Shown piece after piece: positions 129 through 52,040 of a DNA stretch of 52,040 bases. The stretch's first letter is position 1. Each line of letters opens with the position of its first letter. The notes under the pieces were generated by a model. The model was not told the DNA's origin. It was given only the letters and a program-made list of their open reading frames with translations, and did not search any database. A program made the position numbers and the translations under genes. This DNA is from Ectocarpus siliculosus (Eukaryota > Sar > Phaeophyceae > Ectocarpales > Ectocarpaceae), in assembly GCA_000310025.1 (NCBI GenBank), contig FN648493.1, positions 13,873 through 65,912 of the forward strand, written 5' to 3'.

Positions 129-601
129 CTTCGGTGGGGGAGCGTTTGCGTCTTCCTCGTCCTGCTGAGCCTGGACCCTAGCCTTCACCACCGAAGCTTC
201 GTCCCCGTCTATCGTGCACAGGGGCTTCCCAACCTCCACCTGCGTTAAAACAGAGCACAAACCCATCACGCGAGCTGTTTGTTGAAAGCGACACAGAGGG
301 GCGGCAGGGCGATACGTACACGAACAGAGGTGCAATCCGCCAACCTCATCCCCTGAGTGAAAACACTAACCCATGCCTTAGCACAATCCCAACCCCGTCC
401 AAAGCGTCGGGGAGGGGGACTTGGCTCACCACGTCATCGACGGCCGCGAAGAGCTTCACCACAACCCCGACGTGCGTCGACTGCACGTCAACGCTGACCT
501 TATCGGTCTCGACTACGGCAATGACCTCGTCCTCCGACACCTCGTCGCCTACCGACTTTCGCCACTCCACCACGGTGCCCTCGGAGATGGAGTCGCCAAG
601 C
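129..601 (-). CDS. DLST: Dihydrolipoyl succinyltransferase (2-oxoglutarate dehydrogenase E2), lipoyl-domain exons, partial
   Basis: This is part of the E2 core enzyme of the mitochondrial 2-oxoglutarate dehydrogenase complex, which passes succinyl groups from lipoate to CoA in the TCA cycle. Two exons are visible on the minus strand: 601 down to 430, and 239 down to 129, joined in phase 0 across a GT-AG intron (429-240). Exon one encodes [12 protein letters not shown], then ETDKVSVDV, whose lysine is the expected lipoylation site. Exon two begins [13 protein letters not shown], completing the lipoyl domain, and passes into an acidic Ala/Pro linker. A donor (GGTACG) follows at 128. The SISEGT and ETDK motifs favour the 2-oxoglutarate type over pyruvate E2; branched-chain E2 is the main alternative. 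The catalytic domain lies beyond the left edge. Upstream exons for the presequence were not found between 602 and about 3400. Family call is firm, subtype fairly firm. Confidence 0.83.
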
Positions 602-818
602 CTGCCGAGCCATGACAAGGAGAAGCGCAGGGGGGAAAGTACGACAAGATATTACGGCATTACAGTAGGCTAAGAAAGGTCGTGAGCCCCACCCAAGAAG
701 ACAAGAGACTACGGTAGGCTAACGAAGGTCGTGGACTGCCGAGCCACGATAACAAGAAAGAGCCCAGGGGGGAAATATGACACAGGATTACGATATGAGG
801 CTAAGAAAGGTCGTGAGC
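602..818. repeat. Imperfect direct repeat, about 85 bp units at 134 bp spacing
   Basis: Unit one (602-687) and unit two (736-818) both begin ctgccgagcca and end ggctaagaaaggtcgtgagc. A third partial copy (about 701-735) lies between them. The first unit starts at the inferred splice acceptor of the DLST lipoyl exon, so the duplication copied intron sequence next to that acceptor. Confidence 0.7.
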
Positions 819-11888: not shown

Positions 11889-12609
11889 TGGGGCGGAGGC
11901 GGAGGAGGCGGATGTTGCTGCTGCACTTGGTGCTGTTGCTGCTCGTGCTGCTGACGGGGGGCAAAACGAGGCGCTTCGACGTTAGCTTCGGGGAATGCCG
12001 CCCCGCTGCCCGCAACACTCCCGTGGAACTGGTCCCCGCCCGGTGGTGGAACCCCCGGGTCGTAAGAATGGCCCCGCGTCGGCGGCGGCGGCGGCAGATG
12101 CACGTCCACGTCTGCAGAGGCCGGTGTGACGTACCCGACGGTTTCGTGCCGACGCCAATCGTCGGTAAACCCGCCGCCGTCAGCCCTCGTCCGATCGAGG
12201 CTTCGCTCTCGTTTTTCGGTGCCGTAGTCGAACCTTTGAGGGGGATAGGCATCAACCGTTGTAGCAGGAAAGGAGCCAGGTTCATGGTGCATGAAGACGG
12301 AAGCGCACATGCATACGAAACAATTATCGTCACTGATGCGGCAAACAAAAATTTTAACACTTCTATGCATACAACGACGCTGGTTGCATGCACAGGAGCG
12401 GATAAAATAGCGTCACCTTCGACACATCAAAAACGAAGGTCGTCCGCTATTCCCGATAACCCTCTCTGCGACGGCGGAACATTACAACTCACCCTGAATC
12501 GCCGCTATCCCGCCTACGGTCAGAAGCTTCGCGGCCGGCCCCTGCCCCGGACGCCCCCCTCCCCCGTTTCGAGTCCCCAGACGTGCGCCTACCAACGGCT
12601 GCCTGCGAG

Positions 12610-12641
<32 letters not shown>

Positions 12642-14513: not shown

Positions 14514-14621
14514 GTTCCTGCAGCGCCGCGCCAAGGAGGGCAGGGGTTGTTGGTTACGGTGACGGCGCAGGCAGGCCGCGGCACAAGCGTCATCAGCCAC
14601 TCCACGCCATATTTTTTTCAA

Positions 14622-15576
14622 ACAGGAACGAAATGCCGCAGGTCGACCGGAGGCGAGGTCTGTTCGTTACATGCGGACATGTGCCTTTCCCCGCCCGGCC
14701 ATCAATGAAACACCATACCCCCCCCTGAGAAGCATCTGCCCCCGCTTTCCCCTTGACTAGCTTATGGCTCCGAGTACGCCGCACGCCTCCAACAGACACC
14801 ATCTCGAAAATCAACACCTCGAGGCGTGAGGTCGTCGCGGCACACACCCGGAGGTTGCTTGTCGATCTCACATGTTTTCCGAGAAGGCCTGCTTGTATCC
14901 GCTCTTGTGCTCGATGTGCCACGTCTTGGGCTTCCTCTCGTCGCCGCCGCTTTTGCTCTCGCTTTCCGCGATCTTTCGAAGCACGGCAGAGCAAACAGCG
15001 ACACCCAGACGAGCATGTCAAGCCCAGGCAACAGGGAAAGGAGACACGCGCAACAGCACAGAATGCAACCACAATAGGCAAGGCGAGGCGAATGCGAATA
15101 CCGAACTACAGCAGCAACACGGCAAGTGAGGCATGCGACATCATGCCCAAAATAAAAAGGGTGTGCATAGAAAAAAAAAAAAAGTTGGTCCTTGGAGCGC
15201 GGCACTTTTTGATTGCCACGCCACGCCGGCCCCCCTACGCAAACAGAAAGGACCGTTTCGCGGACACACACACCAGAGTTCATTCACCTCACAGTAGTGA
15301 CGTGTCAAAAAGAGCGCGGCTTCCGCGCGACAGGCGACCTCACTCTCTCTCTCTCTCCGACGCGCGTATATAGAGAGACGCCGAGCACCCTTCCCCTTGG
15401 GACCGTCTTCGTCAGAAATCAAGCGTACGAGGATACACAACAGGGAGGGGGTACGCAGACCCTATCATCCCTAACGGTAACCCTAACCCACACTTCCCCG
15501 ATCGCCTTCCTTACCCAGCATGTTTGCTACATACTTACAGATAAAACCTGCGAAGGGCACTGCCCCTCTCTCTCAC
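14622..15576. other. Gap between two minus-strand coding blocks, no exon assigned
   Basis: Could be an intron of one long gene joining the blocks on either side, or an intergenic promoter. I could not find an exon of matching phase. A CT microsatellite lies near 15342-15357, and two telomere-like units (ccctaac) occur near 15480. Confidence 0.4.
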
Positions 15577-21282: not shown

Positions 21283-21600
21283 TTGCGGTCCAAACCCGGA
21301 GAAGTTTCCCCCGACGATTGATCCCGGCTTCCGGTCGAAGCGACCCGGCGGCTTGACGGCGTCCAAGCGACAGCATCGTAGGCATCCCGGAATGAGTCTT
21401 TCCAGCGACCTCCGGCGGTTTATCTTTGTTGCGGTTCAAGCCCGGAGACGTTTCCTCCGATGGTTGATTCGGTCTTCCTGTCGAAGCGACCCGGTGATTT
21501 CACGGCGTCCAAGTGACAGCGCCGTAGGCGTCCTGGAGTCTCTCTTCCCAGCTACCTATGGCGGTTTTGTTTCTGTTGCGGTCCAAACTTCGTGACACCG
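21283..21600. repeat. Tandem repeat, about 147 bp period, two units plus start of a third
   Basis: The block ttgcggt-caa-ccggag starts at 21283, 21429 and 21576 (intervals 146 and 147). Each unit also contains gtcgaagcgacccgg, acggcgtccaag and gtaggc. The units are about 75-80% alike by eye. More diverged copies may lie just upstream (21140-21282). No frame stays open and conserved between units. Confidence 0.65.
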
Positions 21601-23917: not shown

Positions 23918-24120
23918 TACCGTACGTGACACAAGATACCACCCTCCTAGACCAATTTTCGAAGCTCGATTACTCCAAGACAAAGAGGATTCATAAATGA
24001 AACGACCTGTTTTCGGAAAGCTCTCGACGCCGTTTTCGGCGCTGCCACTTTTTCTGCCGTGGAGAAATCGAGCTTTGAAATTCGCTGGAGGGGGTTGGGT
24101 ATCTTGCGTGACCTACGGTA
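23918..24120. mobile_element. MITE-like element, about 200 bp, with about 60 bp terminal inverted repeats
   Basis: The ends taccgta-gtgac and gt-ac-tacggta are inverted copies. Further in, the left arm has caagatacc and ttttcgaagctcgatt-ctcc, and the right arm has ggagaaatcgagctttgaaa and ggtatcttg. The inner block matches the element at 4385-4748, and the outermost block matches the element at 22061-22875, so it links the two. The interior shares a cggaaagc-tcgacg stretch with the 4.4 kb element. Confidence 0.65.
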
Positions 24121-24646
24121 TATTCCTGGTTCCCTGGCGATTTGGGTGCATTGCCTAGCTGATTATGGGAATGCAATGTTTTCGAAGAGAGCCAAGGCAC
24201 CCGATTCGTACCGGTGTAGAAAATGTCTCTCCGTCGCAACGCACCATGTTGTGTGTAGGTGGGTGTCGTGTTTATCTCCTTTTCGCGTGTCTTGCGTACA
24301 TGTCGCCAAAACGCCGAACCAGGTTCCCCACATAGCTCCGCCGACGAGTGCAGGAGGACCAAGAGGGAGTGTTGCACCCGTTGGTGAAGGTTGACCGATG
24401 GCTACTGAAGGTGAGACGGATTGGGCAATACCTGTTGAAGTGGGAAGAACAGAGTGCAGGGCACACGAGGAGTGCAGCGACCAAGGTTACCAGGTTACAG
24501 GAGTAACATTCTGGTGTGGGGGCGGTGCAAGTGTCTAGGTTGTAGACAACCTACAGCAAGGCAGGTTCTGCCTCACAAACACGTGTCGTATGGTTTCCAC
24601 CCCCTTCACCGCGTTCACGCCCCTGTTTGCCCCTGTCCCCGGTTGA

Positions 24647-26560
24647 AATCATATTGGTATCAAGACGAGATTTACCGAATGTATCCTGCCGTTCCTGCTG
24701 AAAAATCGTTCGGTCATTGTTGCTGTAATAGGGCGCACCCGATGCATCGATGCCTTCGTCGCCGCCTTGAGCCAAGCAAGCGAGGGAGGGAAGAAGCGCT
24801 GGTATACGCCGACACTGGAGCTGCAGCTGACCTCGCTGGACATGTGTAGGGCGTGCCGAAGTACGTCGATCTTGCATGTGCGTGTAGACCATCTGACTCC
24901 TCACAGCTTGTGGTCTTCTCGGACAAAACAGACATGGCCGAACACAGGCAGCTCCAGGCTTCGTGTCTCGAGCCGTGTGCCGGTCGCGCGGGCTCTTCGG
25001 TTGACGTGGGCCCTGTCCATGGAAGATCTGCTGAAGAATGCCGCCATCGAGCTGTGGACGTCGTCGCAACGTCTTGAGCTGCAGGGATCGTCGTGTGCGT
25101 CTAGCTTAGGATCAGAAGTGGTTTGGCCCCAAGGGCTGACAGAGCTGGTGTTGGCAACGCACTCGGATGTTCCAACAGACACCATGCGGTGGCCCGTGCT
25201 CCTGCAATATCTGGCACTTTGGGGTAGTTTCAACCAGCCTATTTCGGAAGTCGTGTGGCCGGTGTCCCTGCAAAAGCTATCGTTCGGGGACGAATTCAAT
25301 CAGCCTATTGCCGGAGTCGTGTGGCCGCCCTCCTTGCAGAGGCTATCGATCGGGGACGACTTCAACCAGCCTATTGCTGGAGTCGTGTGGCCGTCCGCCC
25401 TGCGACAGCTATCGTTCGGGGACGAGTTCAACCAGTCAATTGCCGGAGTCGCGTGGCCGCCCTCCCTGCAGCAGCTATCGTTCGGGAAGTACTTCAATCA
25501 GCCTATTGCCGGAGTCGTGTGGTCGTCCTCCCTGCAACAGCTATCATTGGGGTACAGCTGCAATCAGCCTATTGCCGGAGTCGTGTGGCCATCCACACTG
25601 CAACAGTTATCGTTCGGGTCAAGATTCAATCAGTCAATTACCGGAGTCGTGTGGCCGGCCTCCCTACAGCAGCTATCGTTCGGGAGGAACTTCAATCAGC
25701 CTATTGCCGGAGTTGTGTGGCAATCCTCCCAGCTGCAGCTATCATTGGGGTACAGCTTAAATCAGCCCATCGCCGGAGTCGTGTGGCCGTCCTCACTGCA
25801 ACAGTTGTCGTTCGGGTCAAGATTCAATCAGTCAATCGCCGGAGTCGTGTGGCCGTCCTCACTGCAACAGTTATCGTTCGGGTACGAATTCAATCAGTCA
25901 ATCGCCGGAGTCGTGTGGCCGTCCTCACTGCAACAGTTATCGTTCGGGTACGAATTCAATCAGTCTATTGCCGGAGTTGTGTGGCAATCCTCCCTGCTGC
26001 AGCTATCATTGGGATACAGCTTCAATCAGCCTATTGCTGGAGTCGTGTGGCCGTCCTCCCTGCAGCAGCTATCGTTCGGGTCAAGATTCAATCAGCCTAT
26101 TGCTGGGGTGGTGTGGCCGTCCTCCCTGGGACAGCTATCATTCGGGGACGAATTCAATCAGTCAATCGCCGGAGTCGTGTGGCCGGCGTCCCTGCGACAG
26201 CTATCGTTCGGGTACGACTTCGATCAGCCTATTGCCGGAGTTGTGTGGCCATCCTTCCTGCAGCAGCTATCGTTCGGGAGGTGCTTCAATCAGCCTGTTG
26301 CTGGGGTGGTGTGGCCGTCCTCCCTGGGACAGCTATCATTCGGGGACGAATTCAATCAGTCAATCGCCGGAGTCGTGTGGCCGGCGAAACTGCGACAGCT
26401 ATCGTTCGGGCACGACTTCGATCAGTCTATTGCTGGAGTCGTGTGGCCGTCCTCCCTGCAGCAGCTATTGTTCGGGTCACAGTTCAATCAGCCTATTGCC
26501 GGTGTCGTGTGGCCAACCTCGCTACGATCTGTGACACGTGGTGGAGCAAGCCTGTTGTGA
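24647..26560 (+). CDS. FNIP-repeat protein, 20 repeats of 22 residues
   Basis: A single open plus-strand frame. The first in-frame ATG is 24842, giving 572 residues to the stop at 26558-26560; the frame is open without an ATG back to 24647, so a spliced 5' exon is possible. After about 130 unrecognised residues (including WALSMEDLLKNAAIELW) come 20 tandem repeats from 25229 to about 26545. The consensus is FNQPIAGVVWPSSLQQLSFG plus two variable residues, 66 bp per unit. This fits the FNIP repeat, a leucine-rich-repeat-like unit known from Dictyostelium and some giant viruses, generally taken as a binding scaffold. Units 10 and 11 are identical in DNA, and a three-unit block repeats near 26090-26480, so the array has expanded recently. 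The variable positions are mainly the pair before each F. Partner and cell role are unknown. A broken paralogue lies at 34302. Confidence 0.72.
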   Translation, partial: NHIGIKTRFTECILPFLLKNRSVIVAVIGRTRCIDAFVAALSQASEGGKKRWYTPTLELQLTSLDMCRACRSTSILHVRVDHLTPHSLWSSRTKQTWPNTGSSRLRVSSRVPVARALRLTWALSMEDLLKNAAIELWTSSQRLELQGSSCASSLGSEVVWPQGLTELVLATHSDVPTDTMRWPVLLQYLALWGSFNQPISEVVWPVSLQKLSFGDEFNQPIAGVVWPPSLQRLSIGDDFNQPIAGVVWPSALRQLSFGDEFNQSIAGVAWPPSLQQLSFGKYFNQPIAGVVWSSSLQQLSLGYSCNQPIAGVVWPSTLQQLSFGSRFNQSITGVVWPASLQQLSFGRNFNQPIAGVVWQSSQLQLSLGYSLNQPIAGVVWPSSLQQLSFGSRFNQSIAGVVWPSSLQQLSFGYEFNQSIAGVVWPSSLQQLSFGYEFNQSIAGVVWQSSLLQLSLGYSFNQPIAGVVWPSSLQQLSFGSRFNQPIAGVVWPSSLGQLSFGDEFNQSIAGVVWPASLRQLSFGYDFDQPIAGVVWPSFLQQLSFGRCFNQPVAGVVWPSSLGQLSFGDEFNQSIAGVVWPAKLRQLSFGHDFDQSIAGVVWPSSLQQLLFGSQFNQPIAGVVWPTSLRSVTRGGASLL

Positions 26561-28009
26561 AAGGTTCAGTTTTTTTTTTAAATGATTGCATGGATTCGTT
26601 CAGCGTGTGTTGAAGCGAAGTGCTTTTTTGTACCGGTGCTACAGTTCAAACGCAGCACATGTCAGTATTCATATCCACGAACTCAAATCAGGGAGAGTTG
26701 TTGTTTCATACTGTATGCGTGAAAGACATATTCGAATGCTACCTTTCAGGCGCATCAAATTATCATGGCAAGTGTGCAATCCTTGTCGGGTGTAGCAGCC
26801 GTTTTCCTGGTAGAAGGTAATGAGGGTTCTGGAAATCTCGGTAGGGGATTATTTTCTGTCCTTGAGAAACACATTTAAATAGTTCGTGCTTCGCGTGTAG
26901 TGGTATCTCTTGGGTTCATGTTGACCCGTAAAGGTCTTGCCACCATGCATTGTGTACGGGTGTAAATATCTTACGCATCGAATAGGTCGAGTCTGAATGG
27001 ACGAGAACAAACTGACCGCTTCGGGGTCAGATACATTGCGTCGACGTGTGCATCTTCACGAGTTCAATTTCTTGCCTTACAGAAATGGGTATGAGCATAT
27101 TCGAGTGACCACCGTTGGCATACCAAGGGATTTGTTGGAGAAGTACGAGCATGAAGTTTCGCCCCTTGATATCCAGGAACGTCCGCTACGGTGCCGTCAC
27201 TGGAGCGACAGGTGGCCGGAGATTCGTGTGAGGAAGAGTTTTTCTGTCTAACGTGGACCGTTGATGGGCTCGTGTCAAAGAAACGCAGTGGTTTGTGCGG
27301 CGCTCAGCAATGGGTCGATTCTCGTCGGTACCGATTGAATGTGCTGCCGAAAATCCGGCCGATCCAGTGTGTGTGTCGTATGTTGGGTTTCGTCCCAGTT
27401 GTTCTGGGAGCCATGGCTACTTGTTGGTGTTCTTCGATGGGCCCTATTTGTGTAGACTATGCTACCTCCTTTGTGGGATATTTCGCAGGCGACGCCGACC
27501 GTATGGATTTTTGTTTAGTTCTGTTCTGCAACAGTATTTGATGACGTTAATTTTCGTTTTTTCTGGGTCCTCTTTTGTTTTCATTCAAGCATCCACACAA
27601 TAGTGAGTTGCCAGTTTGCGGTAGTTGGCCTGTGACCACGGGGAGGAGGCATCGGCGTCAGTGGCACTGGTACGGACGCTAACAGGTCCCGACCAGAGAC
27701 CAGAACGGGTTTTCATGTGAAGACATCAATTTTCTACGGGCTAGCCTCTGCTTTAAGGGGGCACCGCAGCGTAGTTCTCTGTGTGAGATACCCTGGACCC
27801 GACCTCTTCTGTTGGAAAGGCAACGTGTTGGGGTAGATTGAAGGAGGAGCGACGGAGTTCAATGGTAGAGCAAAAGATGAGTTACTGCCAGTCCTTTCAA
27901 GGTTTGTCTCGAGCTTTCACGTCTGAAGGGGGGGAAGAACAGGGGTTTTGACGCTGGCTCTTTTCCCATGCTTTAATCCTACTCAAAGAAAGAAAACAAC
28001 CTTCCCGCC
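26561..28009. other. Duplicated flank downstream of the FNIP gene
   Basis: Up to about 27920 this matches the sequence downstream of the second FNIP copy (35421-36860) at perhaps 80% by eye, with indels. It may include 3' UTR. A 84-codon frame (26997-27251, starting MDENKLTASGSD) is broken by frameshifts in the second copy, so it is not clearly selected as protein. Confidence 0.55.
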
Positions 28010-28451
28010 AGGGTTAGGTTCGTCATTCTATTGTCATCAGTAGAGGGCACCATGAAGAGGCGTCGTGCGTGCTGGCACGTTCAGGTTTGCTACTGGAGCG
28101 GAAATATCGAAGGTCGCACCAGCCTCTGAAAACAGTCCGAAATCTGTGCCGGAACCAGGCGGCATCGAACATTTGTCACAGCCTTGCCCTGAACGGAGGG
28201 GTGTTAGCAACAGCTAGTGGCATCAGCTACTACTGTAAACCGTAGTTCAGGAGACTGGGGTCGGTGGCGGGGAGCATGGCTGTGACAAATGTTGGATGCC
28301 GCTTGGTTCCGGCGCAGATTTCGGACCGTTTTCCAAGGCTGCCGCCACCTTCGATATTTCAGCTCCAGTAGCAAACCTGAACGCGCCAGCACGCACGACG
28401 CCTCTTCATGATGTCCTCTACTGATGACAACAGAATGCCTAACCTAACCCT
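28010..28451. mobile_element. Foldback element: two about 177 bp inverted arms with an 88 bp spacer
   Basis: The left arm 28010-28186 pairs with the right arm 28275-28451 at about 85-90% by eye. Outer ends are agggttaggtt and aacctaaccct; inner ends are acaaatgt/acatttgt-type blocks beside cacagcc and ggctgtg. No protein frame is present. It is absent from the equivalent place after the second FNIP copy, so it was probably inserted after the segmental duplication, or lost there. Confidence 0.8.
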
Positions 28452-28923
28452 CAAAACTGACCTTATTTGAGCGCCTTTCGTTTTGGCTCTATTGACTTGA
28501 ATTTAGAATGGTGTGAATTTTTACTTGATTTCAAAGGAGGCCTGTGGAGGTAGACGTGTGAAATGTATGTTTTGAGCAGCCTCTACTGTCCCCCTGTGCG
28601 AGAATCAACGATTTCTGTTTTTCGCGGGAAATTATACTACCCTACAGGAAAGCCCGTGGCGCGATTGACAGGAGAACCCAATGGCGATCCATACAAGGTC
28701 AACACCGTCACTGTCTTCATGTCTACGACGATAGTGTCAACTTCCTGATTCTACTCCATTGACAACGAATACACCGCCGATCCTTCCCACCGCCCGCCTC
28801 ACGCACGTCTGCACTTCTGCTTTCATTAACCCACACTCGTGCGATATCTGTGCCTCCCCCAGAACCGTTCCATTCCCCCATTGTGTATACAAACACGCTT
28901 CGAAAGAAGTGCTGTCACTTCCT

Positions 28924-30273
28924 CTACTGCAGTACTTTCTCTTCCTCGGCGTTGCGCATCTCTATCGACTTGGACGGGACCGCGATAACCGCCTGCATCG
29001 CCGCGGACGGAACACCATTCTTCTCGAGAGACTCGATGGCCGCGATCGTCAGTCCCCCCCCAGGCTGCACGCACGTTGTCCTTCAGAATAGCTTCACAAT
29101 CAATCACCACAAACGGAGCAGAGGCATAGAAGGAGCGACGGAACACACATCACGGGCGTACGTTTGACGGCATCGATCGACGAATGCGTCCAGCCGAAAG
29201 GAGATCGAAGGCGATTCATCACGACGTAGCCGCCGGCGGGGAGAGGTCATCAACGAGATGTCCCTCGTGCGCAGCACCGTTGAGGCACCCGCCGTTTCTA
29301 CAGGGACCGGAGGTGAAGGGTGAAAGCGCAAGCTCATCCGCCGATAAGCACAACACATGCATATCGCATAAGGAGCTACCGTCGAAGAGGGGAAGGGCGA
29401 GTGAAAAATGGACACGCTAAGCACGCCATCGGACATCCCGACATCACCAACAACCAAACAAACGGGCGGACGAACGAGCCTAAGGCGCCCAATCCAATGG
29501 AATAGAGTTTCAAGATGTCACGCTAACCGGAGGTTATCGCAGTAGGCGGCAACTACAGCGGATTAGGGTTGACAGCATGTTGGTCGCCCTTAGAAATATC
29601 ACCGGTTGCAAACGTCCGTAGCCAGTGAGAACGTGGATTTTTCGATGCCATGGTTCTGTAGATGTGGTCTAACGGAGTCTCCCAACATGAAATACAGACA
29701 AGGAACAAGCGACGATGCACACTTTATCGGAAGCGGAAGTTTCCGCGGGAACAATGTCAAATAATGTGCCTGACCCGGAATAAGACCCTTGGTCACGACC
29801 CATAAAACCATAGCGAAATACCACGACAGCACCGCGAGAGCAAGGCCTCCGAAGACATGACCTCAACAAGGAAGGCTCATGGGAACAACACAACGGCAGG
29901 AATATCCCCTCGACTAACGATATGACTTCAACACCTGCTCTACAAACCATTGCCTTCAGCATTGCTCGTCTGCGCGAAGGAAAATACTTACGAAAATACG
30001 CAGACGAAACAGACAAGCGTTCTATACTGCAGACCCAAGAGTCAAGACAACCCACCCCTACCCGGCACCCTAGCCCCGAAAGCCCCTTGCCGTTCTTTGG
30101 CCCACTTGGGTGCTCTCCCGTCTCCAGAACCATCTCCGCGGCACCCTTGACGGTTTGCGCGGCGAGCTTGATCGCCATCGCTCTCGGCAAGCCCATCCGG
30201 ACGCCGCCGTCCGCCAGCGCTTCGATCAGCACGTACATTTACGCCGGCCCGCCACCGCTAACAACGGTCAGAC
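28924..30273 (-). pseudogene. P5CR 3'-half copy A, degenerate
   Basis: A copy of the last two exons of the intact P5CR gene at 37602-42260, in the same orientation. The penultimate-exon match (30273 down to about 30106) keeps [18 protein letters not shown], but an in-frame TAA follows GPA just before it. The final-exon match (29091 down to about 28924) has a net 4-base insertion after LKDNV and then runs out of frame. The 3' flank and the intron are also copied. No first-half exons are present upstream, so it cannot encode a whole enzyme. Confidence 0.85.
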
Positions 30274-30283
30274 CTGGTGAACC

Positions 30284-31130
30284 GCAAAGGGTAAAGAGAG
30301 ATCGGTACTCATGTTTGGCATACCTCAGCCGTTAGACCATTGACCGCGTGTCCTCGAGGTGGCGGGGGGGGGGGGGGCTGCCCATTTTAAAAAACCGGGG
30401 GGGGGGGAGGGAAATCGGGCATTTACATTTTCACCGATCCTCCGGAAGGCCCTCCACAGGCCGTAAACCCAGGGCACACAATATGGGATGCTAAAGGGGG
30501 ACCGGGGGTGGCTCTTCACCCCCAAAACCCTCTAACTACCCCCCCAAAAAACGTAAAAAGTCACCGGCAAAAGGAAAAAAAAAGGAACACACAAATCCAA
30601 GGGGATAAAGCCAAGGGGGAAATCAACACTATTGGTAAAAACCCCCAACAACAACTTCAAAAATGTCCACAAAAAAACTGCTGCTGTAACACACCCACCA
30701 ATAACCCAAAACAAGGGGCAATTATCAACTTCCCCCTCCATCAAAAGGACTCCAACCCCACCTAAATACCCCCCGTCCCCTGGAACCAAAAACCATTCTT
30801 CTCAAAAAACTCAATGGCCCCAATCGTCAATCCCCCCCAGGCTGCCCAAACTTTTTCCTTCAAAAAAACTTCACAATTACCACATACGAAACAAAAGCGT
30901 AAAAAGAACGACGAAACACACATTAANNNNNNNNNNNNNNNNNNNNNNNNNNNNNNNNNNNNNNNNNNNNNNNNNNNNNNNNNNNNNNNNNNNNNNNNNN
31001 NNNNNNNNNNNNNNNNNNNNNNNNNNGAAGGCGCCCCCTAAAAAAGTTAAACCCTTGTGAACCAAAAAAGGAAAAAAAAAATGGGTTCTCTTTTTTGGAA
31101 TCCCCCCCCCGTTGAAAAAAGGCCCGCGTG
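30284..31130. other. Assembly gap with low-quality overlapping contig ends
   Basis: Ninety N lie at 30927-31026. Sequence before the gap (about 30360-30926) is a noisy version of sequence after it (about 31130-31710): same order of blocks, with differences skewed to A or C homopolymers. Likewise 31027-31130 is a noisy version of about 30262-30360. The two contigs therefore seem to overlap and the intervening bases may not exist. Frames here should not be trusted. Confidence 0.8.
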
Positions 31131-31549
31131 TCCCGAGGGGGGGGGGGGGGGGGGGGGCTGCACATTGTAAGATACCGGGGGGGCGGGAGGGATATCGTGC
31201 ATTTACATTGTCAGCGATCGTCCGGATGTCCCTCCACAGGCCGTAAGCGCAGGGCACACAGTATGGAGTGCTAAGGCGGGACCGGCGGTGGCTCTTCACC
31301 ACCAATACGCTCTAGCTACCCGCCCGACATACGTAGTAAGTCACCGGCAGAAGGAAAGAAGAAGGAACACACGAATCCAAGGGGATGATGCCAAGGAGGA
31401 CATCAACACTATTGGTAGGAACCGCCAACAACGACTTCAAAAGTGTCCACGAAAGAGCTGCTGCTGTAGCACACCCACCAGTAACCCGAAACAAGGGGCG
31501 ATTATCAACGTCGCCGTCCATCAGACGGACTCGGACGCCACCTAAATAC

Positions 31550-33290
31550 CGCGCGTCGCCTGGGACCGAAAACCATTCTTCTCGAGAGACTCGATGGCCG
31601 CGATCGTCAGTCCCCCCCAGGCTGCGCATACGTTGTCCTTCAGAATAGCTTCACAATTACCACATACGGAGCAGAGGCGTAGGAGGAGCGACGGAACACA
31701 CATTAAAGGGGGTACGTTTGACGGTATCGATGGACGAATGAATCCAGCCGAAAGGAGATCGAAGGCGATTCATTACGACGAAAGCCGCCGGCGGGGAGAG
31801 GTCATCAACGAGATGTCCCTCGTGCGCAGAATTATTGAGGTACCCACTGCTTCTACAGGGGCCGGAGGTAGGGTGTGAAAGCGCAAGCTCATTCGCCGAC
31901 AAGCACAACACATGCATATCGCATAAGGAGCTACCGTCGAAGAGGCAAAATGCGAGTGAAAAATGGACACGCTAAGCACGCGATCGGACATCCCGACATC
32001 ATCCAGAACCAAACAGACGGACAGACGAACGAGCCTAAGGCGCCCAATCCAATGGAATAGAGTTTCAAGATGCCACGCTAACCGGAGGTTATCGCCGTTG
32101 ACGGTAAACCAAGCGGATTAGAGTTGACAGCACGTTGGTAGCCCTTAGAAGCATTCCCGGTTGCACACGTCCGTAGCCAGTGAAAAGGTGGATTGTTCGT
32201 GGGGGGCATAGATGCCATTGTTCTGATAGATGTGGTCTAACGGAAGTCTCCCAACATGAAATACCATCAAGGAAAACGACCATTGGTCGAGACCCACAAA
32301 ACCATCGCTTAGTACCACGCCAGCACCGCGAGAGCAAGGTTTCCGAAGACATGATCTCAACAAGGAGGGCTCATGGGAACACAACACAACGGCCGTTATA
32401 TGCCCTCGACTAACGAATGTGACTTCAATACCTGCTCTGCAAACCATTGCCAGCAGCATCGTTGCTCGTCTGCACGAAGAAAAATACTTGCAAAAATACG
32501 GAGACGAAACACACAAGCGTTTTACTCTGCAGTCCCAAGAGTCAAGCCAACGCACGCCTACCCGACACCATAGCCCTTAGCGCTGTTGGGCCCACCTGGG
32601 TGTTCCTCCGTCTCTAGAACCATCTCCGCGGCACCCTTGACGGTCTGCGCGGCGAGCTTAACAACCATCGCTCCGTCAAGTCGATCCGGACGCCGCCGTC
32701 CGCCAGCGCTTCGATCAGCATGTAGATATACGCTGGCCCGCCACATACCGCTAACACCGGTCAGGCCTGGTGAGCCGCAGAGGGAAAAGAAAGATCTGTA
32801 CTCATGACTGGCATACCCCAGCCGTTGGCTCATTGACCGCGTGTCCCAGAGTCCTCGACAGGAGGGCGGGACGGCAGATTGTAAGGTACAGGCGGGGCGG
32901 GAGGGATATCATGCACTTCTATTGTCAGAGATCGTCCGGGTGTCACTCCACAGGCCGTAAGCGCAGGGTACACACGATGTGGTGAGAAGGCGGGACCGCC
33001 GGTGGCCTGCCACCACCAATATGCTCTAGCCATCCGCCCGACAGAGGAAGTCGCCGGCCGAAGGAAAGAACTACAGTAAGCGTCGGAGTTTCCCCCCCCC
33101 AAGTAGAGTTTTCCCCTCCCCCCAATACTTTTTGGGCCTGGAAGCATGGTTTCTTTGATTTAGCCCCGGGGTAGATCGTTTTCGACCAAAAACAAAAAGA
33201 TCCCCCCGGGTATTTCAATTCCCCCCCGGGGTACCAGTGTTCCCCCCGGGGCGTGTTGGGCATGACGTGGACGACGCGCTTGCCGGGAGC
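31550..33290 (-). pseudogene. P5CR 3'-half copy B, degenerate
   Basis: A second copy of the P5CR 3' half. It has a stub of the MPNTP exon (33290 to about 33246, diverging right after MPNTP), the EALADGG exon (about 32770-32600) with at least two frame-shifting indels, and the start of the last exon (31649 to about 31560). The last piece keeps [14 protein letters not shown] but is cut short by divergence and a stop. The intron between is also conserved. It joins copy A's upstream intron near 31340-31556. Confidence 0.85.
33090..33250. other. C/G homopolymer-rich patch replacing the MPNTP exon in copy B
   Basis: Repeated ccccccgggg runs lie where the intact gene has the rest of exon four. It could be an insertion, or poor base calling at a contig join. 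It has no match elsewhere in the window. Confidence 0.45.
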
Positions 33291-34200
33291 GAGCTGAAGA
33301 GCGTAAGGCAGCGAAATAATGAATTTAGGACGATAAGGGGAACGGGGGCACAGGCAAAAGGGTGGCGCGGTGAAGAGGCGAGGGGGTTGAGACGCTCAAT
33401 TCTTTTATTGAACGTTGCTGTGACTGCCAGTGACTGCCGTGTTTCGAGGCCGAATCTCGCTTGAGAGGATGAAGAAAGGAGGAAACCCGATATTATTCTA
33501 TTGTTCAGCGTTGTAGCATGCCAGCAACAACGATTTCTAGTGGACCTTCTAGTGGACCTTCTTTGAGAGGTACGTACGCGACCAAAGGGCATAGCAGCAC
33601 GAAAAATCACGAATAGTATTAGAATACGAATTCTGAGCTCACTGCTGCAAGTTTTGTCGAGTGCCCACTACTGCGACACACAGTTGTTGAGTGCCACGAA
33701 ACGAGGGTCCGAGTTGCGCTTCCTACTCAACGTTCACAGAAGTCGGAACACGGCCATCGTCGGCCAACACGGCCTGGTTGAAACGGCCTCGTTGGAACCT
33801 AGAACGCCGGTGATATCGAGCGCTTGCGTATACAGCCTGGTGGGACCCTGGGAGCTCTATCGTGTGTCTTGGCAACGGAGGTTGGCCGCTTTCTCCCTTG
33901 CCACTCATGCCCCCCCCAAGGCAACGAGCAGTCTACCCGCCCTGTCAAGAAAACACCTATTCGCCAGCACTACCCACAAGGTTTCGATATCTCTGCCTCT
34001 TCGTATCCAGTTGCCGTAGACGTGTTTCCGGGAACAACCGAGGCGTTTTGGTAACACACGGGAACAGGGCAGCTGTTCCCTTCTGTCCCTGTCCCCGATC
34101 GAGATCGCCCATTCTGGCATCAACACGAGAAACTGCCCCACACATCCGACCTCTCTTGCTGGAAAATCGTTCGGTCATTTTTGCTAGGGCGCACCCAGTG
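33291..34200. other. Region between P5CR copy B and the broken FNIP copy
   Basis: Up to about 33610 this is a copy of P5CR intron 3 sequence (compare 39455-39730). From about 34078 it matches the upstream flank of the first FNIP gene (compare 24625 onward). Between them no gene is recognised. Confidence 0.5.
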
Positions 34201-34301
34201 CCTCGATGCCTTTGTCGTCGCCTTGAGCCAAGCGTGCGAGGGAGGGGAGAAACGCTGGTATGTGTCGACACTGGAGCTGCAGCTGACCTCGCTGGCTGGA
34301 C

Positions 34302-35420
34302 ATGTGCAGGGCGTGCCGAAGTACGTCGATTTTGCACGTGCGTGTAAATGATCAGACCCCTCAAAGCTTGTGGTTATCTCGGACAACACAGACCCGGCCG
34401 AACGCTCGCAGCTGGAAGCTCCGTATCTCGAGCCGTCTACCGGTCGTGCGGGCTCTTGGCTTGACGTGGGCCCTGTCCATGGAAGATCTGCTGATGAAAG
34501 CCGTCACCAAGCTGTGGACGTCGTCGCAACGTCTTGAGCTGTAGGGATTGTCGTGTGCGTCTAGCCTGGGATCAGAAGTGGCTTGGGGGCTGACACAGAT
34601 GATATTGTTCGCAGATTCGGATATTGCCGTGGAGAACGTGTGGTGGCCGGTGCAATTGCAATGTCTGGCACTTCGGGGAAATTTCATTTAGCTCATTGCC
34701 GGAGTCGTATGGCCGGCGTCCCTGCAACAGCTATCGTTCGGGCCCTACTTCAATCAACCTATTGCCGGAGTCGCATGGCCAGCGTCCGTGCAAGAGCTGT
34801 CGTCCGGCGACAACTTCAATCAGCCCACTGCCGGAGTCGCGTGGCCATCCTCCCTGCAAAAGCTGTCGTTCGGGTACAACTTCGATCAGCCTATTGCCGG
34901 AGTCGTGTGGCCGGCTTCCCTGCAAAAGCAGGCGTTCGGGGATAGCTTCAATCAACCTATCGCCGAAGCCGTTTGGCTGGCGTCCCTGCAACAGCTATCG
35001 TTCGGGTACAACTTCGATCAGCCTATCGCCGGAGTCATGTGGCCGGTTTCCCTGCACAATCTGTCGTTCGGGGACAGCTTCAATCAGTCGATTGTCGGAG
35101 TCGTGTGGCCATCCTCCCTGCAACAGCTATCATTCGGGGCAATATTCAATCAGCCTATTGCCGGAGTCTCGAGGCCGTCTTCCCTGCAAAAGCTAACATT
35201 CGGGTTCAGATTCAATCAGCCTATTGCCGGTGTAGTGTGGCCGTCCTTCCTGCAGCAGCTATCGTTCGGGATATGTTTCAATCAGCCTATCGCCGGAGTC
35301 GTGTGGCCCGTTTTTCTGCAAAAGCTGTCGTTCGGGGACAGTTTCGATGAACCTATCGCCGGAGTCGTGTGGCCAACTTCGCTGCGATCTGGGACACGTG
35401 GTGGAGAAAGCCTGTTGTGA
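34302..35420 (+). pseudogene. FNIP-repeat gene copy 2, 11 repeats, broken
   Basis: A paralogue of the 24.6 kb gene. The frame starting at ATG 34302 matches the first copy but ends at an in-frame TAG (34542-34544), where the first copy has CAG. A second TAG falls in the first repeat, where the first copy has CAG (FNQ). A 4-base insertion upstream also shifts the frame just before this ATG. From about 34692 to the stop at 35420 an open stretch holds ten repeats, with consensus FNQPIAGVVWPxSLQxLSFG. Array length (11 against 20) differs, so the arrays have changed size since duplication. A shorter protein from an internal start is possible but no ATG was seen early in it. Confidence 0.75.
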
Positions 35421-36886
35421 AAGGCTCGGGGGGGGTTCGAGACAATTGCGTGGTTTGGTTCAGCGTGAGTGTTGAAAAGAATGGATTGATGTTTGTACAG
35501 GTGCTACAGTCCAAACTCAGCACACGTGTTCAGCATTCATTTCCACGAAATCAAATGAGGGAGAGTTGTTATTTCATGTGCATGAAATACATAGACTATT
35601 TCGAATGCCTCCTTTCAGGTACATCAAATCATCATTGCAATTGTGCAATCCTTGCATGATGTAGCAGCCGTCTTCCTGGTAAAGAGTATTTAAGGTTTGG
35701 GAATCTCGGTGGGAGATTCTGTCCTTGTGAAACACATTTGAATGACTCGTTCTCCGCGTGTAATTTATCTCTTGGGTTCATGTTGACCCGTAAAGGTGGT
35801 ACAACCATGTGTGGTATTGTGTGTGGGTGTGATATCTTGCGCGTCGTATAGGTCGAGTCTGAATGGACGAGAACAAGCTGACCGCTTCGGGGTCAGATGC
35901 ATTGTCGTCGACGTGCGCATCGTCAAGAGTTTGGTTTCTTGACGTATTCAAATGTGTTGCTACACCATTTACCTGGACTAGAGCTTGTTAGAGTGCCCAC
36001 CGTTGGCATACCAAGGGGTATGTTTGAGAGGAACGAAGATGAAGGTTCGCCCCTTGATATCCAGGAACGCTGTCCGCAAAGGTGCCGTCACTGGAGCGAC
36101 AGGTGGCTGGAGATCAAGCCATTGTACGTGGTGTGACAACGATTTTTTCTGTCGAACGTAGACGGTTGATGGGCTGGTGTCCAAGAAACGTCGTGGTTTG
36201 TGCTGCCCTAAGCAATGGGTCCATTCTCGTCGGTACCGATTAACTGTGCTGCCGAAAATCCGACCGAACCATGTGTGTGTTGTACGTTGTGTTTCGTCCC
36301 CGCTGCTCTGGGAGCCAGGTCTACTCGTTGGTGTAAATGTATCGAAGGTACTGCGGTTTCTTCGATGGGCTCTGTTTGTGTAGACTTTGCATACCTCATT
36401 CGTAGGATACGTCGCCGGTGACGCTGACCGTATGGGGATGTTTCTGGCTCTGTTCTGCTACAGTATATTGTAACGTTGTTTTTGGTTTGTCTGGGTCCTC
36501 TTTGCTTTTCTCTTTTGAGGATCCATACAAAAGCGAGATGCCAGGTTGGGGTAGTCGGCCTGTGACCACGGGAAGGAGGCATCGCCGTCAGTGGCACCGG
36601 TACGGACGTTTACAGGTCCTGAGCAGAGACCAGAACGGGTTTTCATGTGAAAACATCCACTATTCAGCAAGCTAGCCCCTGCTCTAAGGGGGCACCGCAG
36701 CGTAGTTCTCTGTGTGAGAGATACCCTGGACCCGATGTCTTCGGTTGGAAAGGGAAAGGCAACGTCTTGGGGTAGATTGAAGGAGTAGCGACGGAGTTCA
36801 ATCGGAGAGCAAAAGAAAAGTAACCGCCAGTCCTTTCAAGGTATATCTCGAGCTTTCAGGTCTTAGGGTGATCATGTCTACAAGGT
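35421..36886. other. Duplicated flank downstream of FNIP copy 2
   Basis: Matches 26561-27920 downstream of the first FNIP gene up to about 36860. It has scattered indels that break the small frames shared with the first copy. No gene recognised. Confidence 0.5.
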
Positions 36887-37294
36887 ATGACGGCTAAAGC
36901 GTTAAAAAAACGCGGGAAAATGTCGGAGGACTATTTAGATTTTACATTAAGAGACTACGAGAAGGTGCTCTGTCTCGCAATGGATGAGTGGTCAATGCTC
37001 AAAAGGCTGAGGCTCTATTCTTGCAACAATCAGGTTCTCCATGAAAGCAGCGTCTTGGTAACATGCGGAGACAGATCGTGGTCACATTTCAGAAGCAACG
37101 CTCATTTCAGTGAGAGCCGAAGGCAGCAAGAAAGAACGGGGCAAACAAAACACCACCGCTGGTTTTTACTACGTTATGTGTGTCGAAGGTACAGATGCGT
37201 TGTTCAGGAACTCTTCGATCTGCTATTGCTACTACGTGAACACCTGACGCCCTCACCAAACTACAAACACGGGAAAATATACTCACCGAACTAG
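36887..37294 (+). CDS. Unrecognised 135-codon frame
   Basis: Starts at ATG 36887 and has an ordinary amino-acid composition (begins MTAKALKKRGKMSEDYLDF) with a leucine-rich end (LFDLLLLLREHL). It lies between FNIP copy 2 and the P5CR 3' end, and is not part of the duplicated blocks. No family or motif is recognised, and chance cannot be excluded. Confidence 0.22.
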   Translation: MTAKALKKRGKMSEDYLDFTLRDYEKVLCLAMDEWSMLKRLRLYSCNNQVLHESSVLVTCGDRSWSHFRSNAHFSESRRQQERTGQTKHHRWFLLRYVCRRYRCVVQELFDLLLLLREHLTPSPNYKHGKIYSPN

Positions 37295-37601
37295 AAACAC
37301 GGGAAAATTAACTAACGTACACGAAAGCCAATGGCGCTTTTTACAGGAGAATAGCGATCCATACAACGGTCAATGAAGACCATCACTTTCTTCGTGTCTA
37401 CGACGATGGTGCCAACATCCTGATTCCACTCGATTGTTAACGAGTACTCCGCCAATCCTTCCCACCGCCCGCCTCACAAACGTCTGCTCTTCTGCTTCTT
37501 CATTGAACCACACTTCGTGCAATATCTGTGCCTCCCTCAGAACTGTTCCACACTCCCATCCTGTAGAAGAATACGCTTTGAAAGAATTACTGTCACTTCT
37601 T

Positions 37602-40600
37602 CTACTTCGTGCGTTTCTCTTCCTCCGCGTTGCGCATCTCAATAGACTTGGACGCGACCGCGATAACCGCCTGCATGGCCGCGGACCGAAAGCCGTTCTT
37701 CTCGAGAGACTCGATGGCCGCGATCGTCAGCCCCCCTGGGCTGCACACGTTGTCCTTGAGAACAGCTTCACAATCACGACACGAGAAGCAGAGGCGTAGA
37801 AGAAGCGACAGAACACACATCAAAAGGCGTACGTTTGACGGCATCGATCGACGAATACATCCAGCGGAAAGGAGATCGATGGCGTTTCATCACGACGTAG
37901 CCGCCGGCGGGGAGGGGTCATCAACGAGATGTCCCTCGTGCGCAGGGTCGTTGAGGAACCCGCTGCTTCTACAGGGGCCGGAGGTAGGGGGTGAAAGCGC
38001 AAGCTCATCCGCCGACGAGCTCAACACATCAATATCGCTTAAGGCCACCGCTGGGCAGGATGAAGGCATGTGGAAGATAGACACGCCAAGCACGCCGTCG
38101 GACATCCCAACATCAGCAACAACCAAACAAACGGACAGACGAACGAGTAACAGACGCGCAATCCAATGGAATAGATGGCACGCTAACCGGAGGTGTTATC
38201 GCTGTTTGGCGGTAAATGGAGCGGGTTAGAGTTGACAACATGTTGGTAGCCCTTACAAACAATATCGGCTGCAACCGTCCATAGCCAGTGAGAGTGCGGA
38301 TTATTCGTAGGGGTTGGGCATCATTGCTCTGATAGATGTGGTCCACCTAAAGTCTCCCAACATAAATTACAAGAAAAACGACCCTTGGTCGAGACGAATA
38401 AAACCAAAGAGTAATACCACGACGGCAACGCGAGAGCAAGGCCTCTGAAGATATCATCCGAACAAGGAGGGGCCATGGGAACAATACAACGGCAGTAATA
38501 CCCCCTCAACCAGCGAGGGTGACTTCAACACCTGCTGTACAAACCATTGCCAGCAGCTTCGTTGCTCGTTCTGCGCGACGTAAAATACTGTTCAACAACC
38601 GGCGACGAATTCACAAGCATTGTTTTACTGCAGGCCCAAGGGTCAAGACAACCCACTCCTACCCGACACCCTAGCCCCAAAGCCCCGAACGTTGTTTGGC
38701 CCACCTGGGTGTTCTCCCGTCTCTAGAACCATCTCCGCGGCACCCTTGACGGTCTGCGCGGCGAGTCTGATCGCCATCGCTCTCGGTAAGCCCATCCGGA
38801 CGCCGCCGTCCGCCAGCGCTTCGATCAGCACGTAAATGTACGCCGGCCCGCTACCGCTAACACCGGTCAGGCCTGGTGAGCCGCAGAGGGTTAAGAGAGA
38901 TCGGTGCTCATGTTTTGCATGACTTAGCCGTTAGACCATTGATCACGTGTCTTCGACAGGGCGGGGGGGCACAGCAGATTGTAAGGTACAGGGGGGGCGG
39001 GAGGGATATCGTGCATGAAAATGGATATTGTCAGCCATCATCCGGGTGTCACCCCACAGGCCGTAAGCACGTGTAAGCGCAGGGTGCACACGATGGAGTG
39101 CTAAAGCGGGACCGGCGGGGGGGCGCCACCACCACTATGCTCGAGCCATCCGCCCGACATAGTAAGTCGCTGGCCGAAGGAATAAACTAACCCTTACCCC
39201 AACTGAGGCCAACAGACCCCCCGTACCCCATACCTAGATCCCTAGCCATGGGGGCCCCGATCCCCCCCCCCTCTCTCACCGTCAAGTAACGCCTCTTTGA
39301 CCTCCACCGCGAGGCCGACAGCCCCCATTAGGGCGTGTACCGTATCCCGGTCCTCGTCGGTGGCCAGAGACCCCATCGAGAAACCGGTAGCGCCCTCGGA
39401 CACAAGGCAGGGCGTGTTGGGCATGACACGGACAACGCGCTTGCCGGGAGCGAGCTGAAGATCGTAAGGCAACGAGATAATGAATTTGGGACGACAAGGG
39501 GGACGGGGGCGCCGGCAAAAGGGTGGCGCGGTGAAGAGGCGAGGGGGTTGAGAACCTCAATTTTTTTATTGAATGTTGCTGTGACTGCCGTGTTTCGAGA
39601 CCGAATCTCGCTTGAGAGGATGAAGAAGAGAGGAAACCCGAGATTACTCTATTGTTCAACCTAGTAGCATGCCAGAAACAAGAAAGTGCATTGCGGCCGT
39701 GGAGAGGTACGTACACAACCAAGCGCATAGCAGAACGAAAAATCAGTGAAAACTAGCAAAGCTGGAAGAGGAGATGCCCGTCCGATTCGCTCCCAAGTTT
39801 GTGCGCTGCTGCTCGCACTGTGGCAAACAACAACAGGGAACAAATGACGATCTTTTACGAAACCTCAAGTCAAACTGTGACGAGGTATATCCTCTAACCC
39901 TACCCACGCCCGAATCCGAGGAAAAATCACGCGACTGACTTGGCAAAGGTGTGCCATCACGGCAAACACAGCAAGAACGCGTCCATAAAGGGCCTGTCTT
40001 GCACGAAACAGAACCCATTTCGCCGCCAAAGCGCTTAGCACGGCGTTTTTTCACCTGCTCCAACACGGCGAGAGGGATTCCGGCCGCGATGGACACGACC
40101 AGCGCATCCTTCCTGAGGTGCGGGGCGATCTCTCGCAGCACCGCCGGGACGACGTCGGGCTTGACGGCAACGACAACCACGTCGGACCCGGATGCGACCT
40201 AGACAGGCAGCACGTCAGCCAGGCAGACAGACAGACAGACAGGCAGCCAGCCAGCCAGCCAGCCAGACAAACAGACAGACAATCCAGGTTTCGTCGGTGC
40301 GGGATTGGTTCTTGATTGATGCGAAGCAGCGCAATAAGAAGCGTGCGTGCGCAAGTACCTAGGAGCAACATGTCACGGACAGACTACAAAATAAAACTTT
40401 GTCGATTTCTATTCCACGAGCACAATGTTACCCGTGCGCGAGTACGCGCCGTTGTCGTACCCAACTTCACATATTCATCCATAGTTTGAATACTATATTA
40501 CCACAAACGTGAACCGACGCGCGGCTCCAGACGCAATGGGTGGGACGGGGGCGTGGGGTCTCAGTCTGCTATCTAGAGGTTGATGTGTCCAGTAGTCAAC

Positions 40601-42260
40601 TTCACATCAAGGCAACCAGAACGGTGATGAAGGGCAGAACGCTAAAATACAAATGAGAGCAATACCGGACAACCACCTTGACACATCAAAACACAAACAT
40701 GTGAAGAAACAGGCGAAACACACAAATAAACAGGTTCGGAGCCTCGTCAGCCACCTATGCATACCTCAAGGTTAATGTCAGAGGTGCGAACGCCCAGCTT
40801 AGCAAAGCGGTCCAAGCTCGACCTGTGCGGCGCGCTCACGAAGACATTGTCTGGTTCCGTCACCTGTGGTAACCAGATCACATAGAACCGTTCGAGGCAA
40901 TAGGGCATCAAACTTGCCGAAGAGAAGAACAGATTGCTCCATCCACAGCAATAATAGTTGGGTCGGGACAAATGCTCCTACGCTCGACTGCCGTCGAGTG
41001 CAGGTTGAACGGAAGCGGAGCGGAGAGCGGTGGACTGTTCGTTCGGAGCTCTGTCTTTGAACCGCGCCCACGACTCATGAAAAATCATCCTCAAGAAGAC
41101 AAACAAGTGCGCTAACACCCTAGCCGGAGAGAGGAGACATTCTAACACATTCTAGCTGGCAGAAGAGAGGATCCTGCTAGTGGTCAAGTCCTGCCGTACG
41201 CGTGCGCGACCGACACTACTGGTGGCGATGGCACATCTCGTTGCCCCTTGTTTCAACCAGCGTTTCGAGACGCGGATACCAACGAGATAGCCAACTCAAA
41301 AGTCGAGAACGAGGACAGGCGGCGTAGGGTATGGTGCCCAGAGCGTTATGACGATGTTTTCGCGACGACGGTGCGAAGAACCAAAGCAACCACGGATTCC
41401 AATCCGTTGTTCTCGTGTTGCGGCCACATTCATACGTTTGTCCCGTACCAGAAACAGCAGGTCCTTCCGGTTCCGATAAATTTCCAAACTAACTCCTTTT
41501 TTCTTCTTTCTCCCAGTCTACGTTTGCCTCGCATAGCGTGTAGAGGCGAGCGGAGGGTTCTAGACTACCTATCGTTGACTTCTATCGACTCTTGGACCCT
41601 TTCGGTCCATGTAATTTAGAATACCGCGTCAGGTGTGAGAACGGTACGGACAGAAGACGTTACTGGGTAGAGAGAACGGAACGGTTTTTCAATGTGAAGA
41701 TAACAACAGCAGTAGCAACAACAACCACAACAACAACCACAAAAACTCCTGCTGCTTTGATCGCCCACGGCAGCCGGATCTCCAAACCTATGTGCCCCCT
41801 CACCCACCCCACAGTAGCAGCGACCGCCCTTCGTGGCCACGCCTCCGTTCTAGTTCTTACGTACGTCTACGGTCGCCAACGGACAACACATAAGCAAGCA
41901 AACCAATTCTAGCCCGGCACCGCGACTATTTCGTACGAAGCAAACCTGGAAATATGGGCAAGAGTGCACATGCAGCTATTAATAGGAGCGAAGAGCATCA
42001 TTAGCACTGGTCGGCGCCATAGGCAGTACAAGACTTCCGACTGTGGTAATGGGCAGTCTTTCTGTGTCCTTATGAATATTTTCAAAAAGCAGGAGCAAAG
42101 AAAACAGGGCAGGGAAAGAGGGCGTAAGCGGACCGATTACCTTCGACGCCACGATACCGTTGACCATCGCCGTCGCCATCATCCCGGCACCGACGAAGCC
42201 TAGCCTGGGACCGTCCCCTGGCTCCGGCGCTTCCACCTCATCCTCGACGGTGGTGGCCAT
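37602..42260 (-). CDS. P5CR: Pyrroline-5-carboxylate reductase, six exons
   Basis: Catalyses NAD(P)H-dependent reduction of 1-pyrroline-5-carboxylate to L-proline, the last step of proline synthesis. Exons on the minus strand: 42260-42141, 40863-40765, 40198-40055, 39454-39280, 38872-38705 and 37765-37602. All introns are GT-AG; the first three junctions are phase 0 and the last two split codons (G/GC and G/CT). The product is 289 residues, normal for the family. Visible motifs: Rossmann [12 protein letters not shown] (G24, G26), [25 protein letters not shown] (132-136), GVSGSGPAY (183-191), [17 protein letters not shown] and [14 protein letters not shown] (234-247). The last two exons are copied twice at 28.9-33.3 kb as pseudogenes; this copy has no lesion. 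The start ATG follows an open in-frame stretch and a possible acceptor (ttcgcag), so a targeting exon could lie upstream. Confidence 0.95.
40201..40282. repeat. CAGA/CAGC tetranucleotide microsatellite in P5CR intron 2
   Basis: About 18 mixed units of cagg, caga and ccag. It begins three bases upstream of the splice acceptor of exon three (minus strand), so it sits in the polypyrimidine/branch region of that intron. Confidence 0.8.
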
Positions 42261-52018: not shown

Positions 52019-52021
52019 TAC

Positions 52022-52040
52022 GGGGGGGGGGGGGGGGGGG
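52022..52040. repeat. Poly-G tract at the right window edge
   Basis: Nineteen G to the end of the window, mirroring the left edge; likely a scaffold end. Confidence 0.9.

Follow-up and report, generated by a model that had tools for sequence, protein, structure and literature searches.

The FNIP/FGxxFN leucine-rich-repeat proteins (PF05725) are described from Dictyostelium and brown algae and include Crov588 and Crov539, which come from a giant virus named in an excerpt of PMC9525666. The same excerpt counted 104 such FNIP sequences, mostly with WP sub-motifs, in a brown alga (printed "Endocarpus"), and the available part of PMC4421812 gave 121 putative FNIP proteins in Saccharina. FNIP genes and an FNIP pseudogene of brown algae are already in print, as far as the available parts of PMC4421812 and PMC2373305 go. 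Pyrroline-5-carboxylate reductase (P5CR, ProC) is a family with two domains, and tandem (segmental) duplication is a described source of partial gene copies. False duplication from unmerged overlapping contig ends is a known category of assembly error. All of these met at the locus reported here, for which searches on FNIP or P5CR with Ectocarpus and on duplication or pseudogenes in brown algae revealed no paper among the matches listed, judged by titles and the starts of abstracts.

The window, which means the whole stretch of 52,040 nucleotides of Ectocarpus siliculosus that was analyzed (contig FN648493.1, positions 13,873 to 65,912), was compared with itself by BLAST. Two FNIP blocks (A1, A2) and three blocks of P5CR 3' sequence (P1, P2, P3) were recovered as direct repeats of about 78-87% identity, which are all the copies that a previous sequence-only reading had named, and their order on the plus strand was A1, P1, P2, A2, P3. 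The single orientation described for them held among the copies of one gene and failed between the genes, since FNIP and P5CR were read from opposite strands, plus for the former and minus for the latter. A1 matched A2 in two segments (24628-25931 to 34084-35385, 79%; 25835-27924 to 34695-36863, 78%), P1 matched P3 at 81% (28625-29696 to 37300-38371), and P2 matched P3 at 80% (31528-33073 to 37645-39189) and 83% (33249-33609 to 39410-39745). The features of the locus were as follows.

24628-27928, plus strand: FNIP block A1, with an open frame at 24647-26560, about 20 units and 1.4 kb of copied downstream DNA
28010-28451, no strand: imperfect palindrome of 442 bp in the A1-P1 spacer, with no match in the A2-P3 spacer
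28625-31360, minus strand: P5CR 3' fragment P1, with exons 5 and 6, intron 5, most of intron 4 and the 3' flank
30255-30926, no strand: left contig end, the same DNA as 31035-31706, with poor base calls from about 30353 to the gap
30927-31026, no strand: assembly gap of 100 N between two contigs that overlap
31027-31706, no strand: right contig end, overlapping the left end, with poor base calls in its first 105 or so bases and good ones after
31361-31527, no strand: unmatched sequence of about 167 bp at the P1/P2 junction, matched within the window by nothing but its miscalled duplicate at 30571-30760
31528-33609, minus strand: P5CR 3' fragment P2, with part of exon 6, intron 5, exon 5, most of intron 4, the start of exon 4 and part of intron 3
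34084-36868, plus strand: FNIP block A2, a pseudogene of about 11 units with in-frame stops at 34542 and 34689
37300-39745, minus strand: P3, the part of the intact P5CR gene homologous to P1 and P2 by self-BLAST
37602-42260, minus strand: intact P5CR gene, exons 42260-42141, 40863-40765, 40198-40055, 39454-39280, 38872-38705 and 37765-37602

The gap at 30927-31026 was the sole N run in the window and measured exactly 100 N. In self-BLAST the 672 bp on its left aligned to its right side at 82%, and 30255-30926 repeated about 31035-31706 across it. The differences consisted of isolated bases replaced by the adjacent base and of lengthened runs. Within 30376-30926 (551 bp, no indels) every one of the 86 mismatches reproduced a base adjacent in the right copy, as did 29 of 30 in 31040-31128 with respect to the left copy. 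Such neighbour-copying accounted for 33-48% of the mismatches in seven comparisons of paralogues from the same region (7-18 gap openings per kb); in 20,000 trials of simulated divergence it averaged 37 of 86 mismatches and peaked at 57. An eighth comparison, that of the left contig with P3, reached 61%, as expected if the left copy was miscalled. In the part degraded on the left, four comparisons with third copies favoured the right contig at 27-28 of 31 sites and the left contig at 1-2; where the right contig is degraded, the left contig had the base of P3 at 27 and that of P2 at 24 of 30 sites. Because the third copies backed the opposite contig in each part, each contig was bad towards its own end and both were the same DNA. 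A scan of all 62 direct self-matching pairs with at least 150 columns and at least 15 usable mismatches ranked the 30.3/31.0 kb pair top at 0.77 over its full span, with both degraded ends mixed. The other 61 pairs reached at most 0.625 (a pair within an FNIP array; median 0.48), a smaller margin than that of 100% against 33-48%, since the latter comparison takes the two ends apart. Hence 30255-30926 and about 31035-31706 are one sequence, lying at overlapping contig ends with poor base calls. We take the neighbour-copying signature to resemble that of poor Sanger trace ends. The first Ectocarpus assembly was built from Sanger data, according to the available part of PMC7386250.

When the contigs were merged, with the left one kept to 30353 and the right one from 31134, 780 bases dropped out, gap included. 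The end of the first P5CR copy and the start of the second, as drawn earlier, fell inside the artefact, and three P5CR copies survived the correction. The assembly artefact that the sequence-only reading had named as its own possible undoing was real for about 30.3-31.7 kb only.

The intact P5CR gene comprised six exons from 42260 to 37602 on the minus strand, with GT-AG introns in phase and a product of 289 aa; the donor of exon 2 was picked among the in-phase GTs for keeping conserved sequence without a stop. The product scored 276.3 bits against TIGR00112 (ProC equivalog, cut-off 196.75) over profile positions 1-262 of 263, and carried both P5CR domains, the N-terminal dinucleotide-binding PF03807 (60.7 bits) and the C-terminal dimerisation domain PF14748 (139 bits). 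Solved P5CR structures matched its residues 12-279, with a best E of 1.1e-67. P3 extended from within intron 3 to 0.3 kb beyond the stop codon. A 30-bp direct repeat of 1.9 copies (37252-37308) overlapped the left edge of the P3/P1 homology at 37300.

The last P5CR and the first FNIP copy had been called the only intact members. This was upheld for P5CR by the six GT-AG exons and the score above the ProC cut-off, and was not for A1, which was open for 637 codons (24647-26560) but had its first in-frame ATG at codon 66 (24842), with the homology block starting just 19 bp ahead of the open frame. The A1 array contained about 20 units of 66 bp at 25229-26548, the last of them degenerate, and scored 301.8 bits against PF05725 (gathering score 21; 13 stretches, E 7e-92). 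The closest solved relatives in the PDB were Crov588 (E 6e-258) and Crov539 (E 1e-54). Four more Pfam names for A1 (Plectin etc., E 1e-6 to 7e-5) were rejected as chance similarity to the repeats, as no stretch passed alone. Scans of viral contigs for FNIP or P5CR relatives, which used exact query peptides and speak for close relatives only, gave three pattern-matching stretches in each of two scans, none of them confirmed by tblastn.

Relative to A1, A2 had one deletion of 5 bp and one insertion of 4 bp, and TAG codons interrupted its frame at 34542 and 34689. Pairs of A1 units were identical (10/11) or nearly so (14/17, 98%; 8/12, 95%; 15/18, 94%), and units within A2 shared at most 88%. Because the A1 identities exceed anything within A2, the A1 array has probably gained units since the two blocks split. 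The normalised N/S ratio among units, whose pairs within an array are not independent of each other, was 0.26 in the FNIP frame of A1 (other frames, 0.65 and 2.91) and 0.38 in that of A2 (other frames, 1.00 and 1.31). As most differences among A1 units are silent when read in the FNIP frame, this frame was probably under selection during array growth. In the copied 5' part, A1-A2 mismatches numbered 33, 20 and 30 at codon positions 1, 2 and 3 (about 176 sites each), which is little difference. A weakly supported unit tree (MAFFT; A2 rows phased 3 bases off) failed to part A1 from A2 units, with 6 label changes against a shuffled mean of 9.1.

The two P5CR fragments kept noncoding parts of the gene. 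P1 began in the 3' flank, took in exons 6 and 5 with intron 5 between them, and ended in intron 4 at the equivalent of P3 39186; its exon 5 contained a stop and its exon 6 a frameshift, and it was also broken by the false duplication. P2 started at about 31528, inside exon 6 (P3 37645), and reached P3 39745 in intron 3; its exon 5 was frameshifted twice, and the last part of exon 6 had been lost. At 33073-33249 of P2, about 175 unmatched bp stood where the start of intron 4 and the bulk of exon 4 would be. This stretch contained numerous homopolymer runs, as well as CCCCGGGG three times within 88 bp. It was also considered as a further low-quality stretch and rejected as such, being homopolymer-rich but with no adjoining gap and no P3 match. 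Intron 5 and most of intron 4 were present in both fragments, the 3' flank in P1 and part of intron 3 in P2. These adjacent direct copies with introns and flank bore out the earlier proposal of duplication at the DNA level, and a processed retrocopy was ruled out since introns were kept in both.

The region of exons 1-3, beyond 39745, had no second match in the window (BLAST E 1e-10; 39735-40300 also at E 0.01), so P1 and P2 were probably never able to make the enzyme. Where the conserved motif of exon 6 was SPGG, both fragments had AAWGG, with the frame kept in P2 and lost in P1. Five gaps were shared by P1 and P2, three by P1 and P3, and two by P2 and P3. The homology of both fragments to P3 broke at a nearly identical point of intron 4 (39186-39189), followed in each by unrelated sequence (from 31360 and 33073 in the window), so that P1, P2 and P3 continue past this point in three different ways with no mutual relation.

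The edges of the units were then compared. The A1-P1 and A2-P3 spacers (27900-28640 and 36850-37310) showed no homology (z 0.1 against shuffled sequence), and the alignment scores of nine pairs drawn from spacers, flanks and inserts lay in the range of shuffled sequence, with z from -1.3 to 1.5. The flanks before A1, between P2 and A2, and after P3 shared no sequence in any of their three pairs in word-7 BLAST at E 1; for two of these pairs the shuffled alignment scores agreed (z -0.3 and -0.1). No repeats were found at unit edges in the 0.5-0.7 kb tested per edge in the three flanks. Small edge and spacer hits were set aside: one of 25 bp linked the A2-P3 and P2-A2 spacers at 80% (E 0.04), and the rest measured 18-33 bp (E 0.05-0.6). 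Imperfect palindromes of 0.2-0.45 kb with 66-80% arm identity lay at 28010-28451, 8191-8478 and 23918-24120, the last related to a second site of the window at 4403-4599; they are possibly foldback elements. The palindrome at 28010-28451 is a probable insertion in the A1-P1 spacer, and the search for a target-site duplication around it gave only an unconvincing ACCTT several bases off each end.

K80 divergence between A1 and A2 was 0.171 in the 3' part (95% bootstrap interval 0.146-0.196) and 0.197 in the 5' part (0.157-0.242). Introns gave 0.203 (0.178-0.231) for P1-P3, 0.221 (0.191-0.246) for P2-P3 and 0.146 (0.124-0.171) for P1-P2, and exons gave 0.103, 0.134 and 0.136 respectively, with exon limits (37603-37768, 38711-38887) that depart by 1-15 bases from exons 6 and 5 as finally modelled. 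The P2-P3 value beyond 39186 (0.354) was left out, as this part contains unalignable sequence. Because exons were less diverged than introns against P3, and alike for P1-P2, P3 has been constrained, and P1 and P2 have been without coding constraint since their split. The intron divergence of P1-P2 was below both values against P3, and its interval overlapped that of the A1-A2 3' part; in intron 4 alone P1 was no closer to P2 (0.207) than to P3 (0.198). Site patterns showed no significant change between halves that would mark a mosaic history of P1 and P2 (P = 0.17). Given a K of 0.15-0.22 and 7-18 gaps per kb, the copies are unlikely to be alleles. At the rate of 4.07e-10 per site per generation given for Ectocarpus in the available part of PMC10254074, a K of about 0.17-0.22 corresponds to some 2-3e8 generations (0.6-22e8 over the interval of that source), and at this age related genera should share the duplication.

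Beyond the copies, introns, lesions, divergences and overlap signature established above, a history of the locus is proposed. Tandem duplication at the DNA level would have copied a block, with its edge in intron 3, that comprised an FNIP leucine-rich-repeat gene together with 3' sequence of P5CR; the original P5CR gene would have stayed whole as P3 and gained a 5'-truncated fragment as its neighbour. This fragment, its conserved exon 6 motif already changed, would have been duplicated again into P1 and P2 with unmatched DNA at the joint; P1, P2 and A2 would have decayed afterwards and the A1 array would have kept gaining units. P1 lies on a contig boundary of the assembly, where two overlapping low-quality ends were set end to end with 100 N, so that about 0.67 kb appears twice. 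The core of tandem DNA duplication, second duplication of the fragment, decay and contig overlap is highly probable. The decay suggested earlier was supported by the lesions in P1, P2 and A2 and by the equal exon and intron divergence of P1-P2 (0.136 against 0.146). Its description as decay of alternate members was not quite accurate: P1 and P2 retain no trace of exons 1-3 and seem to derive from one fragment, already altered in exon 6, that was duplicated a second time. They would be sisters, a kinship judged without an outgroup and with a P1-P2 intron interval (0.124-0.171) overlapping the A1-A2 3' interval (0.146-0.196). The near-coincident break of P1 and P2 at 39186-39189 is left unaccounted for by this explanation.

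The FNIP and P5CR divergence intervals overlap (K about 0.17-0.22), which suits one event, and the order and orientation of FNIP and P5CR match between the units. The alternative is that the FNIP and P5CR fragments were duplicated in separate events and interleaved by chance, FNIP being a large spreading family. Brown-algal FNIP families are indeed large, as in Saccharina (PMC4421812, available part), and the FNIP-P5CR spacers are unrelated between the two units; against this stand that matching order and the overlap of the A1-A2 intervals with that of the P1-P3 introns. Since the spacers (27929-28625 and 36868-37300) are not homologous, a single event needs later indels in both, and two events of like age fit too; our confidence in one event was lowered on this ground. 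We regard joint movement as moderately likely and separate events as rather unlikely.

As to the mode of joining, the sequence-only reading favoured unequal exchange. Unequal crossing-over between dispersed repeats whose edges have since eroded would explain the tandem direct copies, and about 0.2 substitutions per site with many indels could have erased the edge repeats. Yet the three flanks share no sequence, no repeats were found at unit edges in 0.5-0.7 kb per edge, and the P1/P2 joint holds about 167 bp matching no other copy, so that exchange is unlikely and the earlier proposal was not sustained. End joining or template switching with later insertions is favoured instead. For the repeat at 30.3-31.7 kb, a real younger duplication would be compatible with the paralogue-like difference at 16% of sites over 551 bp, but the neighbour-copying substitutions, the lack of indels over that length and the degradation towards the gap on both sides make it extremely unlikely, and contig overlap is retained. 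On a wider scale, the FNIP genes of the lineage might form a birth-and-death recognition repertoire, in which tandem duplication of whole genes would drag along the ends of neighbouring genes and surviving arrays would add 66-bp units; we consider this quite improbable.

Elsewhere in the window, an open frame at 6102-6437 (plus strand) contained a 2Fe-2S domain (PF13085); its sequence resembles succinate dehydrogenase B. Another at 349-651 (minus strand) contained a biotin/lipoyl domain (PF00364). The long open frames at 12492-14666 (minus strand, 725 codons) and 49226-52039 (minus strand, 938 codons, reaching the window edge) had no Pfam match at E 0.01. A 146-bp unit was repeated at 21283-21588 (2.1 copies, 79% match).

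Biologically the locus is routine, an old tandem duplication with decay, that is, ordinary genome evolution plus an assembly flaw. Its lesson lies in the flaw: where overlapping contigs are left unmerged, poor base calls can mimic an old duplication with 16% divergence. A simple test separates artefact from paralogue, namely whether mismatches copy their neighbours and indels are absent. Judging from the one case here, gene counts and duplication histories of draft assemblies could be inflated in this way. Compared with known systems, A1 shares the 22-residue LxxLxFGxxFNQPIxxVxWPxx with FNIP/FGxxFN proteins, its WP sub-motif included, and differs in the 194 codons ahead of its repeats, which match no Pfam family at E 0.01. 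The P3 gene has both domains of ProC, and no difference from the family was seen. As in other tandem duplications with partial gene copies, the copies here are adjacent, direct and intron-bearing, truncated at one edge and in apparently neutral decay; nothing differs in kind, and the second duplication of the fragment and the unmatched joint are particular to this locus. Known false duplications from unmerged contig ends likewise have the same sequence flanking a round-number N gap, but here, unlike in those, the ends look 16-34% different through poor base calls and so mimic an old paralogue.
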